A stretch of 64,000 nucleotides of DNA from Clostridium sp. 12(A) (GTDB lineage Bacteria > Bacillota > Clostridia > Lachnospirales > Lachnospiraceae), in the NCBI GenBank assembly GCA_000526575.1, contig JAGI01000002.1, forward strand, positions 1,116,001 to 1,180,000, in the 5' to 3' direction. The translations under genes were made by a program, and so were the position numbers. Positions 14,094 through 61,150 of the stretch are shown here, one piece after another; position 1 is the first letter of the stretch, and every line of letters begins with the position of its first letter. A model generated the notes under the pieces. That model saw only the letters and a list, made by a program, of their open reading frames with translations. It ran no database searches and was not told the origin of the DNA.

Positions 14094-14177
14094 TGCAGAA
14101 GAAGGGACTTGAACCCTCAAGGTATTGCTACCACACGGACCTGAACCGTGCGCGTCTGCCAATTCCGCCACTTCTGC
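14094..14177 (-). tRNA. tRNA-Leu (CAG), copy 1
   Basis: 84 nt on the minus strand. Acceptor GCAGAAG/CTTCTGC, D-arm TTGGCAGACGC, anticodon loop TTCAGGT with anticodon CAG (plus-strand ctg at 14141-14143), long variable arm and GGTTCAAGTCC T-arm. CCA is not encoded. Identical to the copy at 14451-14534. Confidence 0.95.
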
Positions 14178-14282
14178 TCATTAATTGTATAAATTGGAGA
14201 ACCAATTCGTACAATTATATTACTATACTTCCAGCAAATAATCAAGCACTTTTTGTATTTTTAAATGCTCTCTCATAGGGAT

Positions 14283-14318
14283 AAAAAAAGAACCCCTTGT
14301 TAAGGATTCTTTTTATTA
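14283..14318 (-). terminator. intrinsic terminator between tRNA genes
   Basis: AGAACCCCTT-GTT-AAGGATTCT with a T-run in both directions; on the minus strand it follows the tRNA-Leu at 14320-14403. Confidence 0.65.
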
Positions 14319-14319
14319 A

Positions 14320-14403
14320 TGCGGGAGATGGGACTTGAACCCACACGATCATACAACCACAAGATCCTTAGTCTTGCCTGTCTGCCAATTCCAGCACTCC
14401 CGC
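14320..14403 (-). tRNA. tRNA-Leu (AAG), minus-strand copy
   Basis: 84 nt, acceptor GCGGGAG/CTCCCGC, anticodon stem CAAGA/TCTTG and loop CTAAGGA, which puts AAG at positions 34-36. Long variable arm as in all Leu tRNAs. A34 would need TadA-type deamination to inosine to read CUU/CUC(/CUA). The same gene occurs inverted at 14693-14776. Confidence 0.93.
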
Positions 14404-14450
14404 ACGTCATTTTATAAAACCAAACAGCCATGACATTCTGTAAGGTTTCA

Positions 14451-14534
14451 TGCAGAAGAAGGGACTTGAACCCTCAAGGTATTGCTACCACACGGACCTG
14501 AACCGTGCGCGTCTGCCAATTCCGCCACTTCTGC
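14451..14534 (-). tRNA. tRNA-Leu (CAG), copy 2
   Basis: 84 nt, same sequence as the gene at 14094-14177, same strand; anticodon CAG. The two copies flank the minus-strand tRNA-Leu(AAG), which points to local duplication. Confidence 0.95.
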
Positions 14535-14651
14535 ATTTCGTTGTTATCTCTCGCAACAACAATAGCTATTATAGTATACAAGCACTATTATGTCAATATC
14601 TTTTTTCCAATTTTTTTCAAATTGTTTTTTGTATATATTTTTCAAAAAACA

Positions 14652-14680
14652 TTGACAATAATTAAAAAGCATGATAAGAT
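14652..14680 (+). promoter_or_regulatory. sigma-A promoter of tRNA-Leu (AAG), plus-strand copy
   Basis: TTGACA (14652-14657), 17-bp spacer, TAAGAT (14675-14680); transcription would begin a few bases before the tRNA at 14693. Confidence 0.7.
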
Positions 14681-14692
14681 TACTTTCGTTGC

Positions 14693-14776
14693 GCGGGAGT
14701 GCTGGAATTGGCAGACAGGCAAGACTAAGGATCTTGTGGTTGTATGATCGTGTGGGTTCAAGTCCCATCTCCCGCA
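14693..14776 (+). tRNA. tRNA-Leu (AAG), plus-strand copy
   Basis: 84 nt, identical in sequence to the minus-strand gene at 14320-14403 but on the opposite strand, with its own strong promoter. Anticodon AAG. It is followed by tRNA-Asn, which has a separate promoter. Confidence 0.94.
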
Positions 14777-14790
14777 TTTTTATTTTTTTA

Positions 14791-14818
14791 TTGACATATC
14801 TCAATTTTGGGGTATAAT
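14791..14818 (+). promoter_or_regulatory. sigma-A promoter of tRNA-Asn
   Basis: TTGACA (14791-14796), 16-bp spacer, TATAAT (14813-14818), ten bases ahead of the mature tRNA. Confidence 0.75.
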
Positions 14819-14828
14819 AATAAAGTAT

Positions 14829-14901
14829 TCCTCGATAGCTCAGTCGGTAGAGCAAACGGCTGTTAACCGTTGGGTCGTAGGTTCAAGTCCTACTCGGGGA
14901 G
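14829..14901 (+). tRNA. tRNA-Asn (GTT)
   Basis: 73 nt, acceptor TCCTCGA/TCGGGGA with G discriminator, D-arm AGCTCAGTCGGTAGAGC, anticodon loop CTGTTAA with GTT, T-arm GTAGGTTCAAGTCCTAC. CCA not encoded. Confidence 0.96.
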
Positions 14902-14905
14902 TTTT

Positions 14906-24412: not shown

Positions 24413-24670
24413 AAAAAAGTCCCTTTCCATACGTTTCCATACAGAAAGGGACGATTTAATCAAAATAAATCGCGGTTCCACCCTAAATTGAGCGGACAAA
24501 AATGTCCAAACCACTTCATTTGATGATAACGGGATCACCGTTCCCGATTAAGGGACGCTCCAAGATGGTTTTCTCATAGCATTCCGGTAAAGCACTTTCA
24601 CCTTATGTGCTTCTCTCTGGACGTTCCTGCAATGATACTGTTCTTATCCACGCGTTTTCTATATAGCTTT
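24413..24670 (-). promoter_or_regulatory. T-box leader of thrS
   Basis: The minus strand carries the T-box AGGGTGGAACCGCG (24471-24484), which pairs with the acceptor end of uncharged tRNA. It is followed by the terminator GTCCCTTTC...GAAAGGGAC with six T (24413-24452). Upstream sequence has the paired Stem I segments. An ACC triplet (minus strand, 24586-24588) is a candidate specifier for Thr, but I did not fold Stem I, so its place is tentative. Confidence 0.93.
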
Positions 24671-45335: not shown

Positions 45336-46232
45336 TTAGAATGAAGGAACAACTGCTCCATCATACTTATCATTGATGAATTTCTTTACCTCTTCACTTG
45401 TAAGTGCTTCTACAAGCGCTTTTGTCTTTTCGTTGCTCTCATCGCCGGAACGAACTGCTACGATATTGCTGTAACGAGTTGCTGCCACTGATTTTGCATC
45501 TTCTACTGCTAAAGCTTCTGATACCTTTAAACCAGCCTCAATGGCATAGTTTCCGTTAATAACTGCAACATCAACATCTCCAAGAGAACGTGGAAGCTGA
45601 GCTGCTTCTACTTCAATGATCTTAAAGTTCTTTTCATTTTTAACAATATCATTCTTAGTTGCTTCCAGTTCTACGCCTTCCTTAAGTTCGATGAGACCAT
45701 TATCTGCCAAAAGAAGAAGTGCTCTTGCTTCATTGGAAACATCGTTAGGAACTGCAATCTGTGCCCCTTCTTTCAGCTCTTCCAGGGATTTCGTCTTACC
45801 TGCATAAATACCAAAAGGCTCATAGTGAATTGCTGCTGCACTGACAAGATTGGTCTTATTCTGTTCGTTGAACTGGTCTAAATAAGGCTGATGCTGAAAA
45901 TAGTTAGCATCCAGATCACCGGAATCCAGTGCCAGGTTTGGCTGCACGTAATCGGTATACTCTTTTACTACCAGCTCATAACCTTTTTCTTTTAAAATAT
46001 CTTTTGCTGCATTTAAGATTTCTGCGTGTGGAGCAGGAGTTGCACCGACAACAATTTTCTCTAAATCGCCTGCTGCTTTTGTTTCATCGCCTGCTTTTGT
46101 TGTCTCTGAAGAAGCTGCTTCTGTCTTAGACTCTGCTGCTGTTGTAGCAGTAGATCCCTTGCCAGAAGAGCAAGCAGTTAATGCACCTGCTAAAAGTACG
46201 GCTGCGGTAAGAACGTAAAATGATTTTTTCAT
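45336..46232 (-). CDS. metQ: methionine ABC transporter, substrate-binding lipoprotein
   Basis: NlpA/MetQ protein of 298 residues. The signal ends in the lipobox LLAGALTAC, so Cys21 is lipidated and anchors it outside the membrane. The body has KIVVGATPAPHAEILNAAKD, LALDSGDLDANYFQHQPYLD and VDVAVINGNYAIEAGL, all characteristic of methionine-binding proteins. A 46-bp gap follows metI. Last gene of metNIQ, which is under leader control. Confidence 0.95.
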   Translation of the reverse strand: MKKSFYVLTAAVLLAGALTACSSGKGSTATTAAESKTEAASSETTKAGDETKAAGDLEKIVVGATPAPHAEILNAAKDILKEKGYELVVKEYTDYVQPNLALDSGDLDANYFQHQPYLDQFNEQNKTNLVSAAAIHYEPFGIYAGKTKSLEELKEGAQIAVPNDVSNEARALLLLADNGLIELKEGVELEATKNDIVKNEKNFKIIEVEAAQLPRSLGDVDVAVINGNYAIEAGLKVSEALAVEDAKSVAATRYSNIVAVRSGDESNEKTKALVEALTSEEVKKFINDKYDGAVVPSF

Positions 46233-46278: not shown

Positions 46279-46944
46279 CTACTTAATCCTTTTGTCGCTG
46301 ACTCTGGAAAGCTTCATACCAGCTTCCTGAATAATCTGTACGATGATAACAAGAATGGCAACGGTTGCGAACATCATTGCTGTCTGATAACGGTAATAGC
46401 CGTATTTGATTGCAATATCTCCTAAACCACCACCGCCTACAAAGCCTGACATGGCGGAATAACCGAGAATCGTTGTTATGGATAAGGCCGCCCCCACCAA
46501 TAAAGACGGTTTGGCTTCGGGTAATAAAACCTTCCATATAATCTGTAATGGTGAGGCACCCATGGATTTTGCAGCTTCAATGACGCCTGCATCTACTTCT
46601 TTAAAGGAAGATTCCACGACTCTTGCAACGTAAGGAGCGGAAGCGATGACAAGGGGCGGAATAACTGCACTTGCACCCAGGGTGGTTCCTACTACCATCT
46701 TTGTAATAGGAAGAACCATGATCAGCAAAATAATAAATGGTACGGAACGAAGAAGGTTTATAATAAGACCCAGGATTCTCTGAAACCAGGGAATTGGAAA
46801 GATTCCGTCTTTATCCGTTACAATAAGTATGATTCCCAAAGGGATTCCGATTAAATATGCAAAAAAGGATGAGGTAAAGGTCATGTATAGTGTTTCCCAA
46901 ATTCCTAATTTAAGCATGCTTAAAGTAGCCGCATCAAATATCAT
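46279..46944 (-). CDS. metI: methionine ABC transporter, permease
   Basis: Permease of 221 residues with five membrane helices. The cytoplasmic EAA loop is ESSFKEVDAGVIEAAKSMGA followed by SPLQIIWKVLLPEA, and LLRSVPFIILLIMVLPITKM is a typical MetI segment. The start ATGA overlaps metN's TGA by 4 nt, so the genes are coupled. Confidence 0.95.
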   Translation of the reverse strand: MIFDAATLSMLKLGIWETLYMTFTSSFFAYLIGIPLGIILIVTDKDGIFPIPWFQRILGLIINLLRSVPFIILLIMVLPITKMVVGTTLGASAVIPPLVIASAPYVARVVESSFKEVDAGVIEAAKSMGASPLQIIWKVLLPEAKPSLLVGAALSITTILGYSAMSGFVGGGGLGDIAIKYGYYRYQTAMMFATVAILVIIVQIIQEAGMKLSRVSDKRIK

Positions 46945-47957
46945 AGATCCTTCACCTCCTCATGAGTTATTTTAGCTGTTTTTAAGTAATTTAAGATACG
47001 GTTCTGATCTAATTCATCTTCCGGAAGCTGGATCACCATCTGACCCATGGCAGTTCCGTTAATATCCTTTGTTTCCGCATGTATGATATTTACAGGAACC
47101 TTGCAGGCCAGGATTAAATTAGAAAGAACTGGTTCAAAGGAAGATCTTCCGTCAAAGGTAATTCTGACTCTTTTGGATTCTCCAAATTGAACGGCACGTT
47201 CCGCTGCCTCTCCTAAGATCAACTGTCGTCCAATCTTAGACTTTGGCTCGGAGAAGATATCAGCGACAGAGCCTGACTCTGCGATGTGGCTTTGGTCAAT
47301 GATTGCCACTCGGTCACATATGGCTTCAATGACTGACATCTCATGGGTGATAACAACTACCGTTACTCCTAGTGTCTTGTTGATTTCTTTTAAAAGACCG
47401 AGAATGGATTTAGTCGTATTGGGATCAAGAGCACTGGTGGCTTCATCGCAAAGAAGAATCTTTGGTTTCGTCGCTAAGGCCCTTGCAATGGCAACTCTCT
47501 GCTTCTGACCACCGGAAAGCTGAGATGGGTATGCCTTTGACCGATCACTTAAACCGACCATATGAAGAAGCTCCATGGCTCTGTCTACCGCTTCCTTCTT
47601 TGATACTCCGGCAATTTCCAGGGGAAAGCAGACATTTTGAAGAACATTCCTCTGGGCCAGTAAGTTAAACTGCTGAAAGATCATTCCCATGGACTGTCTT
47701 GCCAGACGCTGCTCTCTTGGCCGCATGGCTGTAAGACTTTTATTTTCAAAAAGCACAGTACCTGAAGTGGGTACTTCTAAATAGTTAATACAGCGGACTA
47801 AGGTACTCTTTCCGGCTCCGCTTAAACCGATTATTCCAAAAATCTCCCCCCGTCCGATGGAGAGATTGATATCATCCAATGCCTTTATAGGACCGCTGGA
47901 AGTATGAAATTCTTTTCCAAGCCCTACCAGCTCTATAATTGGTTCTGCTGACTGCAT
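46941..47957 (-). CDS. metN: methionine ABC transporter, ATPase
   Basis: ABC ATPase of 338 residues. Walker A is GLSGAGKSTLVRCINYLE, signature LSGGQKQRVAIARAL, Walker B ILLCDEATSALDP, and the switch His in VVVITHEMSV. A C-terminal NIL domain (about residues 265-338, FEPVLSNLILACKVPVNIIH) senses methionine and inhibits uptake when it is plentiful. ATG follows AGAAAGGAAATACACAC. Transcription enters through the Met-rich leader upstream. Confidence 0.96.
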   Translation of the reverse strand: MQSAEPIIELVGLGKEFHTSSGPIKALDDINLSIGRGEIFGIIGLSGAGKSTLVRCINYLEVPTSGTVLFENKSLTAMRPREQRLARQSMGMIFQQFNLLAQRNVLQNVCFPLEIAGVSKKEAVDRAMELLHMVGLSDRSKAYPSQLSGGQKQRVAIARALATKPKILLCDEATSALDPNTTKSILGLLKEINKTLGVTVVVITHEMSVIEAICDRVAIIDQSHIAESGSVADIFSEPKSKIGRQLILGEAAERAVQFGESKRVRITFDGRSSFEPVLSNLILACKVPVNIIHAETKDINGTAMGQMVIQLPEDELDQNRILNYLKTAKITHEEVKDL

Positions 47958-47983: not shown

Positions 47984-48017
47984 AAAAAGGCCGCAAGTCC
48001 TGCACAGACTTGCGACC
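47984..48017 (-). terminator. attenuator terminator ahead of metN
   Basis: Minus strand: GGTCGCAAGTC-TGTGCAG-GACTTGCGGCC followed by TTTTTATAT. It lies between the Met-rich leader ORF and metN, 26 bp before the metN start, so full termination there would block the operon. Confidence 0.85.
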
Positions 48018-48079
48018 TGATAATCTCCGCGTTAGCTGCTTCTTGCGAATTCAATCACAATCCATACAAATGAAAATCA

Positions 48080-48175
48080 TTATCGGTTTTTTACGCACTC
48101 TGACATACAACACATCATCATACACATGTCGTTCATCCGATCCATATTCATCTGCATAGCTTCTGAATGATTCAT
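48080..48175 (-). CDS. Met/Cys-rich leader peptide of metNIQ
   Basis: ORF of 31 codons, ATG at 48175, strong ribosome binding site AAGGAG 8 bases before it. Ten of 31 residues are Met (1, 7, 9, 11, 14, 17, 19, 20, 21, 24) and four are Cys (18, 22, 23, 27), with the motif MCMMMCCM in the middle. It is followed by an attenuator terminator and then metN, so it is best read as a control peptide: scarcity of charged tRNA-Met would stall the ribosome on the Met codons and prevent the terminator. The last nine bases, ACCGATAAT (48079-48087), can pair with ATTATCAGGT (48015-48024), which overlaps the terminator stem. Confidence 0.75.
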   Translation of the reverse strand: MNHSEAMQMNMDRMNDMCMMMCCMSECVKNR

Positions 48176-48231
48176 GGCAGCTACTCCTTCCCTGATTCCT
48201 ATAGTAAAAGTAGGAATTACTTCTGAGGCGT

Positions 48232-48260
48232 ATTTTACGCTTTCTTTTGCTATTTGTCAA
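48232..48260 (-). promoter_or_regulatory. sigma-A promoter of the metNIQ leader
   Basis: Minus strand TTGACA (48255-48260), 17-bp spacer, TAAAAT (48232-48237). The start point would lie about 50 nt before the leader ORF; the 5' leader contains the hairpin ATTCCTA...TAGGAAT. Confidence 0.75.
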
Positions 48261-48295: not shown

Positions 48296-49699
48296 TTAGG
48301 AGCAAAGATCTACAATTACCTGTGCGAATATTTTGGCGCTTACTACAAGCTCCTCCACAACGGCAAATTCATCTGCTCCGTGCATACGGTTGTCTGTTTC
48401 CGGCATGGAAGCTCCAAACGCCACTCCATTTTTCAGATCATGGACATAAGTACCGCCGCCCATGGAGATGCATTCCCCTTTTCTGCCGGTGTATGTTTCG
48501 TAAACCTGTAACAGTGTTTTTACAAACTCTGAGTTTCCATCAACATGGTGAGGAGGTCTCATGGAGTCATTATGAAGAGTAAAGCCCTTATCTTCCATAT
48601 TCTTCTTTACTACCTGAAGAACATTTTCTTCGTTGGAGCAGATAGGACAACGGCTGTCAAAGGTTCCTTCCAGTCCAGTGTCTGTTACTTTCAGCAAACT
48701 GAATGCCAGCGTTAAATCTCCAGAGATTTCATCTCCCATAGCGATTCCAAGTGACTTTCCACTGGTATCTCCATGAGGAATCAAATCATGAAGTCTGCGA
48801 AGCATGGTTACCTGTGGGCATTCTGCAAGGGGAAGTTTTAACAGGTAATAGAGAAGTCCGGTCAAAGCGTTGTTCCCCTCTTCCGGAGTCGATGCATGAG
48901 CGCCTTCTCCAATAGCGGTTATGATACCTTGGTCTCCCATCATCTCTATCTCATAACGAATTCCTGTCGTTACCTGAGTTTCATCCGCAAATTTCTTTAA
49001 CAGTGCTTCTTCCACTCCAGCAACAGTAGCAGATACCTTACCGGGAACCACATTGACTTTAAGTCCTGCTTCCAGCTTAACAATCTTAGGAAGTTCACCC
49101 GATGCCTCCCATTCTGCCGTAAAGTGACCAGCCAGACCGCCTTTTTCTGTATTCACCACTGGGAAAGCCCCATCTGGTGAAAATGTCATTGGCGCTTCTT
49201 TTTCCACAGAATAATAGTGAGCAATATCAGAGCTTCCGCATTCCTCGTCTGTACCAAGAATCAAACGTACATTTTTACTGAGAGGGATGTTTAAATCCTT
49301 TACCGCTCTAAGGGCATAAAGAGCAGCGACTGCAGGTCCCTTATCATCAGAAGAGCCACGGCCAAAGAGCTTTCCATTCTTAACGATTGGATTAAATGGC
49401 TCTGTTTCCTTCCAGCCTTCTCCGGCCGGAACTACATCAAGATGAGCCAGGATATCAAGCTGAGTCTCCTTGTCGTTTAGATCCACAGTTCCAACATAAT
49501 TGTCGTAATTATTAATGGAAAAGCCATAGGATTCCGCTATGGACAAAGCTTCTGTCAGGGCTTCAAAGGCTCCCGGGCCGAAAGGCATTCCTTCTTTATA
49601 AGGCATCTTTTCGCTGTTGATCCGGCACAGGGTGCAGATATCGTCAAGCATCTCCTGCTTATGGGCCTCTATATATTCTTCGATTTCCTTCTTATACAT
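48296..49699 (-). CDS. pepV: M20 family dipeptidase, PepV-like
   Basis: Zinc dipeptidase of 467 residues. Ligands lie in ILAHLDVVPAGEGW (His, Asp), GRGSSDDKGPAVAALYALR (Asp) and GTDEECGSSDIAHY (Glu pair); the later GGGTYVHDLKNGVAFG contains the final His. A lid domain occupies the middle (residues about 190-370). PepV cleaves dipeptides with an N-terminal Xaa such as Ala or Met. It is upstream of the metNIQ leader on the same strand, with no visible terminator between, and follows yqeY by 16 bp. Confidence 0.93.
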   Translation of the reverse strand: MYKKEIEEYIEAHKQEMLDDICTLCRINSEKMPYKEGMPFGPGAFEALTEALSIAESYGFSINNYDNYVGTVDLNDKETQLDILAHLDVVPAGEGWKETEPFNPIVKNGKLFGRGSSDDKGPAVAALYALRAVKDLNIPLSKNVRLILGTDEECGSSDIAHYYSVEKEAPMTFSPDGAFPVVNTEKGGLAGHFTAEWEASGELPKIVKLEAGLKVNVVPGKVSATVAGVEEALLKKFADETQVTTGIRYEIEMMGDQGIITAIGEGAHASTPEEGNNALTGLLYYLLKLPLAECPQVTMLRRLHDLIPHGDTSGKSLGIAMGDEISGDLTLAFSLLKVTDTGLEGTFDSRCPICSNEENVLQVVKKNMEDKGFTLHNDSMRPPHHVDGNSEFVKTLLQVYETYTGRKGECISMGGGTYVHDLKNGVAFGASMPETDNRMHGADEFAVVEELVVSAKIFAQVIVDLCS

Positions 49700-60896: not shown

Positions 60897-61150
60897 AGAA
60901 AAGCCCCTTGCATCCTGGGATGCAAAGGGCGAATCGTCGCGGTACCACCTTATATTATGACACTTGGTCATATCTCTTAAGGCCTTTAACGCTGCCAGGC
61001 GTGAAGACTTACTTCTTAAATTTCAGCCTTCCGGTTCCAAAGCTACCTTCCGAACATACTTCCTTAACCGCCTTTCAGCCGATGGACGATTCTCTCTTTC
61101 AGGGTTATGATCGTACTCCTCTTTTTCTTAACCTTTTTCTTATTGTTATC
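60897..61150 (-). promoter_or_regulatory. T-box leader of valS
   Basis: Minus strand T-box AAGGTGGTACCGCG (60938-60951) is followed by a terminator (CGCCCTTTGCATCC...GGATGCAAGGGGC, 60903-60930). Stem I lies upstream within about 200 nt. The specifier codon was not located without folding. Confidence 0.92.

Follow-up and report, generated by a model that had tools for sequence, protein, structure and literature searches.

A Methionine- and Cysteine-Rich Leader ORF Upstream of metNIQ in Lachnospiraceae: A Very Probable Ribosome-Mediated Transcription Attenuator

The metNIQ operon of Clostridium sp. 12(A) is preceded by a leader which, judging from sequence comparison, very probably acts as a ribosome-mediated transcription attenuator of the operon, sensing charged Met-tRNA and probably also Cys-tRNA. 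The usual view is that bacteria monitor methionine supply by SAM riboswitches, methionine T-boxes or repressors. An earlier sequence-only reading of the window (the whole analysed stretch of DNA, 64,000 nucleotides) had proposed an attenuator of metNIQ based on Met codons, with cysteine as a possible second signal. Our comparative evidence supports this core claim. The class of mechanism is very likely right, the particular pairing was wrong, and the finding turned out wider than that reading could see.

Results

Organization of the metNIQ Leader

An M20-type peptidase gene ending at 48296 and the ATG of metN (47957) flank the leader on the minus strand, where all the leader and operon features given below are located. 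A sigma-A type promoter, TTGACA-17-TAAAAT (48232..48260), has 11 of 12 matches, while promoter-like sites overall are in no excess (3 here vs. 2.4 in shuffles). TTGACA is present in 23/23 aligned genus leaders, which were cut at TTGACA, and the −10 region is nearly invariant there. It is contained in a palindrome, GCGTAAAATACGC (48240-48228), which is likewise nearly invariant in the genus and might be an operator. Near the transcript start, the sequence and its fold reveal a 5′ hairpin, ATTCCTA...TAGGAAT (48195..48217), recognisable in the genus alignment, as is the Shine-Dalgarno sequence AAGGAG (48184..48189) located 8 nt before the ATG of the leader ORF. The ORF itself (48080..48175), whose 5′UTR is predicted to be about 50 nt long, comprises 31 codons and encodes MNHSEAMQMNMDRMNDMCMMMCCMSECVKNR, with 10 Met and 4 Cys.

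Three segments are relevant to the proposed switch. Segment A (ATGCAGATGAA, 48147..48157) corresponds to ORF codons 7-10 and was assigned as a partner of the first half of segment B by counting pairs in 44 leaders. Segment B (TTCATTTGTATGGATTGTGATT, 48053..48074), the alternative partner of A and C, starts 5 nt behind the stop codon. Segment C (GGTCGCAAGTCTGTGCAG, 48000..48017) is the 5′ arm of the terminator together with the loop. The intrinsic terminator hairpin C:D (47988..48018; 13 pairs, a loop of 5) is followed by a T-tract, and 26 nt separate the latter from metN. The promoter, the 31-codon ORF and the terminator are all located where the sequence-only reading had placed them. The fold of the whole leader is more stable than that of shuffled sequences (z −3.45). 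Downstream, metN encodes the ATPase (46941..47957; Pfam NIL domain), metI the permease (46279..46944; BPD_transp_1) and metQ an NlpA-type binding lipoprotein (45336..46232; NlpA).

Conservation of the Leader ORF and Its Reading Frame

We looked for the metN orthologue in 61 genomes, 24 of them from the same genus. An orthologous ORF with 5-11 Met and 2-4 Cys (the longest frame being counted) was found 5′ of metN in 23 of these 24; the exception is a 67% complete genome (G011), where the second metN type alone was detected. In addition, the best 80 of 545 metN loci (69-99% identity) were taken from a named collection, several of them overlapping with the 61-genome set. Among these best 80 of 545, the nearest was [Clostridium] aerotolerans, followed by Lacrimispora, Hungatella, Muricomes, Enterocloster, Lachnoclostridium and MAGs, and 71 of the 80 kept both a Met/Cys-rich ORF and a terminator-like hairpin, so that homologous leaders have mostly not lost the ORF or its Met codons. 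A terminator-like hairpin between the ORF and metN was present in all 78 parsed leaders (by script; in L105 the hairpin was assigned by hand). As to the nine loci of the 80 that gave no such ORF, the upstream DNA of L114 and L164 is shorter than 250 nt, L127 and L166 carry a T-box in place of the leader, and upstream of metN in L141, L143 and L154 the leader ORF was not found. The remaining two, L145 and L153, retain a promoter and a terminator upstream of metN without the ORF, reflecting either an assembly collapse or lost regulation.

In 69 distinct leaders, 598 ATG triplets are in frame vs. 17 and 34 in the other two frames (51 together), which indicates that the leader reading frame is under selection. 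Met accounts for 27.5% and Cys for 9.7% of the residues in the 69 distinct peptides, and the number of Met varies from 5 to 13 per peptide. The pN/pS value, 0.59 over 31 leader pairs, is a weak test because silent changes are impossible in Met codons and open frames alone were sampled. The peptides share a conserved core, xMQM(N/D)M.MM.GM..MC, where the non-Met residues Q, N and G are conserved too, and the dipeptide MC occurs in 69/69.

Two alignments were used. A1 comprises 51 leaders, namely that of the window and 50 of the 64 named distinct leaders; the other 14 were dropped because their segment B was unalignable. A2 comprises 44 leaders, with rows L093, L096, L103, L139, L147, L161 and L165 of A1 left out. 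In A2, all gaps within the core of the ORF preserve the frame, their lengths being multiples of three, while single-base gaps appear near the ORF end; in L097 and L101, the ORF continues into segment B.

Known RNA Elements at metN Loci

The sequence-only reading had seen no S-box, T-box or other methionine riboswitch in the leader, and this agrees with our searches. At the Rfam gathering score, no family matches the leader. The relaxed search gave five sub-threshold matches, none of them credible, the one with the lowest E value (0.014) being a rhizobial sRNA with 17.2 bits vs. a cut-off of 40. Specifically, neither a T-box (RF00230, with its stem I, T-box sequence and antiterminator bulge) nor a SAM-I (S-box) aptamer was matched in the leader. 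The genome of the window has one RF00162 match, preceding an ORF that looks metK-like by eye. Two T-box leaders of the window (60922-61138 and 24444-24659, minus strand) are ordinary and stand before ORFs that by eye resemble valyl- and threonyl-tRNA synthetase genes, respectively. The window also bears four tRNA-Leu genes, two per strand, and a tRNA-Asn gene at 14094-14902, which looks like an inverted duplication.

No T-box or SAM match at gathering score was obtained in 20 scanned Lachnospiraceae metN loci. In the class-wide sample, where 20 of 29 new loci were scanned, SAM riboswitches were found upstream of metN in 12 of the 20. The T-boxes of L127 and L201 have ATG as a specifier, according to alignments read by eye.

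Distribution, Unlike Leaders and the Second metN

A NIL-domain match was obtained in 119/250 Lachnospiraceae genomes, at 136 places, and 110 metN upstream regions from these were examined. A Met/Cys ORF with a Shine-Dalgarno sequence was found in 27/110 regions vs. 0/110 on the opposite strand and 25/2200 in shuffles, while 83 of the 110 had no such ORF. Together with its recurrence in the genus, this places the ORF beyond chance. When the ORFs were picked by a rule based on Met only, 25/110 regions qualified vs. 40 ORFs in 6600 shuffles.

A covariance model of the leader matched 27/397 genomes of the family; in the class sample it matched 1/291, the genome of the window itself, and none outside. 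A MetN-like ORF follows in 11 of the 14 model-matched loci that were inspected; of the other three, one reaches the contig end and two, both weak, lack such an ORF downstream. Among the 25 leaders picked by the Met-only rule, 11 gave no credible match to the model (E of 0.1 or worse, or none). An earlier split by peptide pattern had left 14 unlike leaders; the model linked four of these, L079 was added as the eleventh, and the 11 are used here. Their cores are, e.g., MMMLCC, MNMKMCC and MMCCCC. All 11 contain Cys, which makes up 7.8% of residues on average vs. 2.9% in the 40 shuffle-derived ORFs. A missing covariance-model match is no proof of independent origin.

The second metN in the genome of the window (49% identity; L032, contig C2, about 2992600-2992900, minus strand) also has a promoter, a terminator and a Met/Cys leader, though a different one, with the peptide MNRMMHAACCISQRAGNMTMAMSLMCCAHLYFLYSHPGK as translated by eye. 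The same leader type was found in six further genomes of the genus. In leaders of this second type, a CUCCC in the ORF tail faces the GGGAG of the terminator (GGGGG in G001), and the antiterminator strand here probably lies in the ORF tail.

Twenty upstream regions of other metN-like ABC genes were inspected as well (L037-L056). A leader is present in the four same-genus loci where metN is 49-50% identical (L037-L040). No leader was found in L041-L050 (same genus, 37-46% identical; metN-like by identity) and in L051-L056 (other genera), the only frames there being Met-rich ones of 15 codons (L047, L048) and chance-like ones (L052, L053). Finally, one of 29 class-wide loci, L297 from outside Lachnospiraceae, has a Met/Cys ORF (MRTNVSAYLNMNASDMCLSDMYMCMCMSMPCCSHIAFCSYL).

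Alternative Pairings in the Leader

The terminator C:D, which served as a positive control, covaries strongly: 8 pairs are changed on both sides, a result reached in 0/500 shuffles. Segment B, with its motif UUCAUUUGUAUGGAUUGUGAUU behind the ORF, pairs with C by 17 pairs and one bulged G. On the 51 leaders of A1, 84% of B:C cells are paired vs. 25-53% when the segments are slid against each other, and 5 pairs are changed on both sides vs. 2.1 in shuffles (9/500 as high). The B:C covariation score is not significant (93/500 shuffles reach it), and the duplex energy is only modestly low compared with shuffled B regions (median z −1.0; 21/69 below −1.64). Since these z-scores are weak, more weight is given here to conservation, register and the counts of pairs. 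An antiterminator that shares the 5′ arm of the terminator, such that only one of the two can form, is predicted, with modest covariation and weak energies. As C would pair with B through both the arm and the loop, this would also explain the conservation of the terminator loop.

The pairing A:B was evaluated on the 44 leaders of A2, where 93.7% of cells are paired vs. 27-55% in slid controls. As A hardly varies, no A:B pair is changed on both sides, and column shuffles do equally well (500/500 reach the observed value). An alignment of relatives revealed a conserved Met-rich ORF and strong covariation in the terminator, but only modest covariation in B:C and none in A:B. Taking B as the motif copy nearest to the stop codon, we found internal Met codons at least 18 nt before B in 453/456 cases, and the stop codon within 18 nt of B in 53/54 leaders.

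The sequence-only reading had paired the end of the ORF with a stretch running into the first three bases of the terminator stem (ACCGATAAT:ATTATCAGGT). This pairing does exist in the window leader, where a 111-nt fragment contains it when folded at minimum energy (z 0.05). As a conserved helix it was rejected: 54.8% of cells are paired vs. 56.0% in shuffles, and at least 7 of the 9 pairs can form in only 9/51 leaders.

The conserved core also has to be considered in another light. It might act as an arrest peptide, with xMQMNM.MM.GM..MC stalling the ribosome via the exit tunnel, the signal being a small molecule (e.g., SAM or methionine) and not uncharged tRNA. The conservation of the non-Met residues, the invariable MC and the pN/pS value would suit such a role, but the A:B pairing can account for part of the core conservation, peptides alike in Met/Cys richness alone precede other metN genes, and the number of Met is far from constant. 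Nascent-peptide arrest is, to our judgement, quite unlikely.

Predicted Folding with and without the Ribosome

The B:C occupancy was computed for the RNA made up to the terminator loop in the 54 of 69 leaders with a recognisable segment B. A ribosome placed on the first internal Met codon gives a mean of 0.62 and one on the last MC codon pair 0.63, compared with 0.23 when none is there. B:C is higher in the stalled state than without a ribosome in 37 leaders and lower in 2 (p 6e-9; 54 leaders, which are related). In the window leader, the predicted occupancies are 0.80 (first Met), 0.77 (MC) and about 0 (no ribosome). Since the occupancies differ in this way, the model separates an on state with a paused ribosome from an off state with none or a departed one.

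A ribosome on the stop codon was supposed in the sequence-only reading to mask the first pairing segment and thereby allow termination. The model does not clearly bear this out. With a 17-nt footprint, mean B:C falls to 0.36 vs. 0.63 in the stalled state (the latter higher in 43 leaders, lower in 5), but with a 12-nt footprint it stays at 0.56, and the difference from the stalled state is not significant (p 0.40; the stalled value is higher in 17 leaders and lower in 11). The window leader behaves likewise: its B:C is 0.45 with 17 nt, but it remains on with 12 nt (0.86). When pairing of the terminator arm with whatever lies upstream was counted, a cruder measure, the means in 69 leaders were 0.66 (stalled), 0.58 (stop) and 0.48 (no ribosome), and stalled vs. 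stop did not differ significantly (p 0.12). In these predictions, the ribosome at the stop codon is therefore not clearly an off state, and re-pairing of B with the ORF after ribosome departure fits better than stop-codon masking.

The terminator could instead be controlled by another factor, such as a DNA- or RNA-binding regulator acting, e.g., at the −10 palindrome, with the ORF merely tuning transcription-translation coupling. The near-invariance of GCGTAAAATACGC in the genus and the two loci that keep a promoter and a terminator without the ORF would fit this, but it leaves unexplained the selection for in-frame Met, the B:C/A:B arrangement and the unrelated Met/Cys leaders, and we regard such control as very unlikely. 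Hardly credible is a small functional Met/Cys-rich protein (e.g., binding metal or sulfur) encoded before metN by happenstance: purifying selection and a core presumably resembling Cu(I)-binding Met/Cys motifs speak for it, but the peptides diverge widely across genera and paralogues, their C-terminal length and frame vary, metN follows in 11/14 inspected covariance-model loci, and the window peptide has no Pfam or NCBIfam match (nothing, or E > 0.1, the same being true of three relatives' peptides with NCBIfam).

Discussion

Returning to attenuation by a translating ribosome, we infer translation of the ORF, pausing, termination and the signal as follows. As RNA polymerase makes the leader, a ribosome would already be translating the Met/Cys-rich ORF. 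A shortage of charged Met-tRNA, and probably of Cys-tRNA, would cause this ribosome to pause on the Met/Cys codons and cover A, leaving B free to pair with C, such that the terminator is blocked and metNIQ is transcribed. When the amino acids are plentiful, the ribosome would finish and leave, A:B would form, C:D would fold, and transcription would stop; a ribosome at the stop codon perhaps helps this off state by partly covering B. If the ORF is not translated, A:B should also form, leaving the operon off. Counting against the model, methionine starvation should also lower the charging of the initiator tRNA and hence initiation on the leader itself.

The classical trp, his and ilv attenuators combine a short ORF that contains codons for the amino acid under control, an alternative antiterminator, an intrinsic terminator and a gene serving the same amino acid. 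The metNIQ leader likewise has a codon-rich ORF, a predicted alternative antiterminator, a terminator and a matching downstream gene. It differs from them in that AUG serves both as the regulatory and as the start codon, two sulfur amino acids are involved, the operon encodes a transporter, and the host family is Lachnospiraceae; moreover, its off state seems tied to A:B re-pairing more than to a ribosome at the stop codon.

In the sulfur field, polycysteine leaderless sORFs of mycobacteria were reportedly described by Canestrari in 2020. A citing paper speaks of translation attenuation by these sORFs (PMC13236596). Like our leader, they reportedly place codons for a sulfur amino acid in a short ORF upstream of the sulfur genes to be controlled, but they are leaderless and use Cys alone, in a run, whereas this ORF has a Shine-Dalgarno sequence, a 5′UTR and at most two consecutive Cys codons. 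A related prediction is metL, a Met and Cys leader peptide ending in CMCRRMCAF before metNIQ of Streptomyces lividans TK24, which was termed an attenuator by those who described it; it was found from RNA-seq and sequence, is leaderless, has three Met including the start, and shows no typical Rho-independent terminator (PMC8079986). Both leaders are Met/Cys peptides before metNIQ, with no sequence similarity seen by eye. In the open-licence literature, the predicted metL was the one Met leader before metNIQ that we found, and no Met/Cys leader spread through Lachnospiraceae was found there. Seliverstov et al. (2005) describe Cys leaders in mycobacteria but saw no RNA structure conserved ahead of the methionine operons of Actinobacteria (PMC1262725).

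In Firmicutes, leader-peptide attenuation is likewise described for other amino acids: a Leu-rich attenuator peptide for the ilv operon of Staphylococcus aureus (PMC5794164), and a His leader peptide in bacilli, leader peptides replacing Firmicute T-boxes for His (Naville and Gautheret, 2010; PMC2965389). Given metL, the mycobacterial Cys leaders and the Firmicute His leaders, leader-peptide attenuation is an old kind of regulation. A Met T-box controls the met operon of Lactococcus lactis (PMC7058034). Met T-boxes and SAM-I riboswitches also control Met transporters by Met supply via a terminator, and they stand before metN in relatives; unlike the leader described here, they sense tRNA or SAM directly and need no ORF.

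A bolder reading, tentative and on balance doubtful, would make the leader a dual Met and Cys attenuator, turned on by shortage of either amino acid, which evolved more than once in Lachnospiraceae and responds biphasically. The Cys part draws on the presence of Cys in all 11 unlike leaders, which were picked on Met alone. The biphasic part, equally bold, would follow from the fact that every peptide begins with the very amino acid being sensed, and the predicted folding puts the untranslated state off: under moderate Met shortage the importer would be on, while under severe shortage initiation on the leader would stop, A:B would form, and the operon would be off.

This leader type spans several genera, and unlike forms precede paralogous metNIQ operons. 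If the proposed mechanism is true, a Met/Cys leader read by the ribosome would give common anaerobes a further way to sense sulfur amino acids, and it raises the question of how an AUG-based sensor works when initiation requires the same amino acid.
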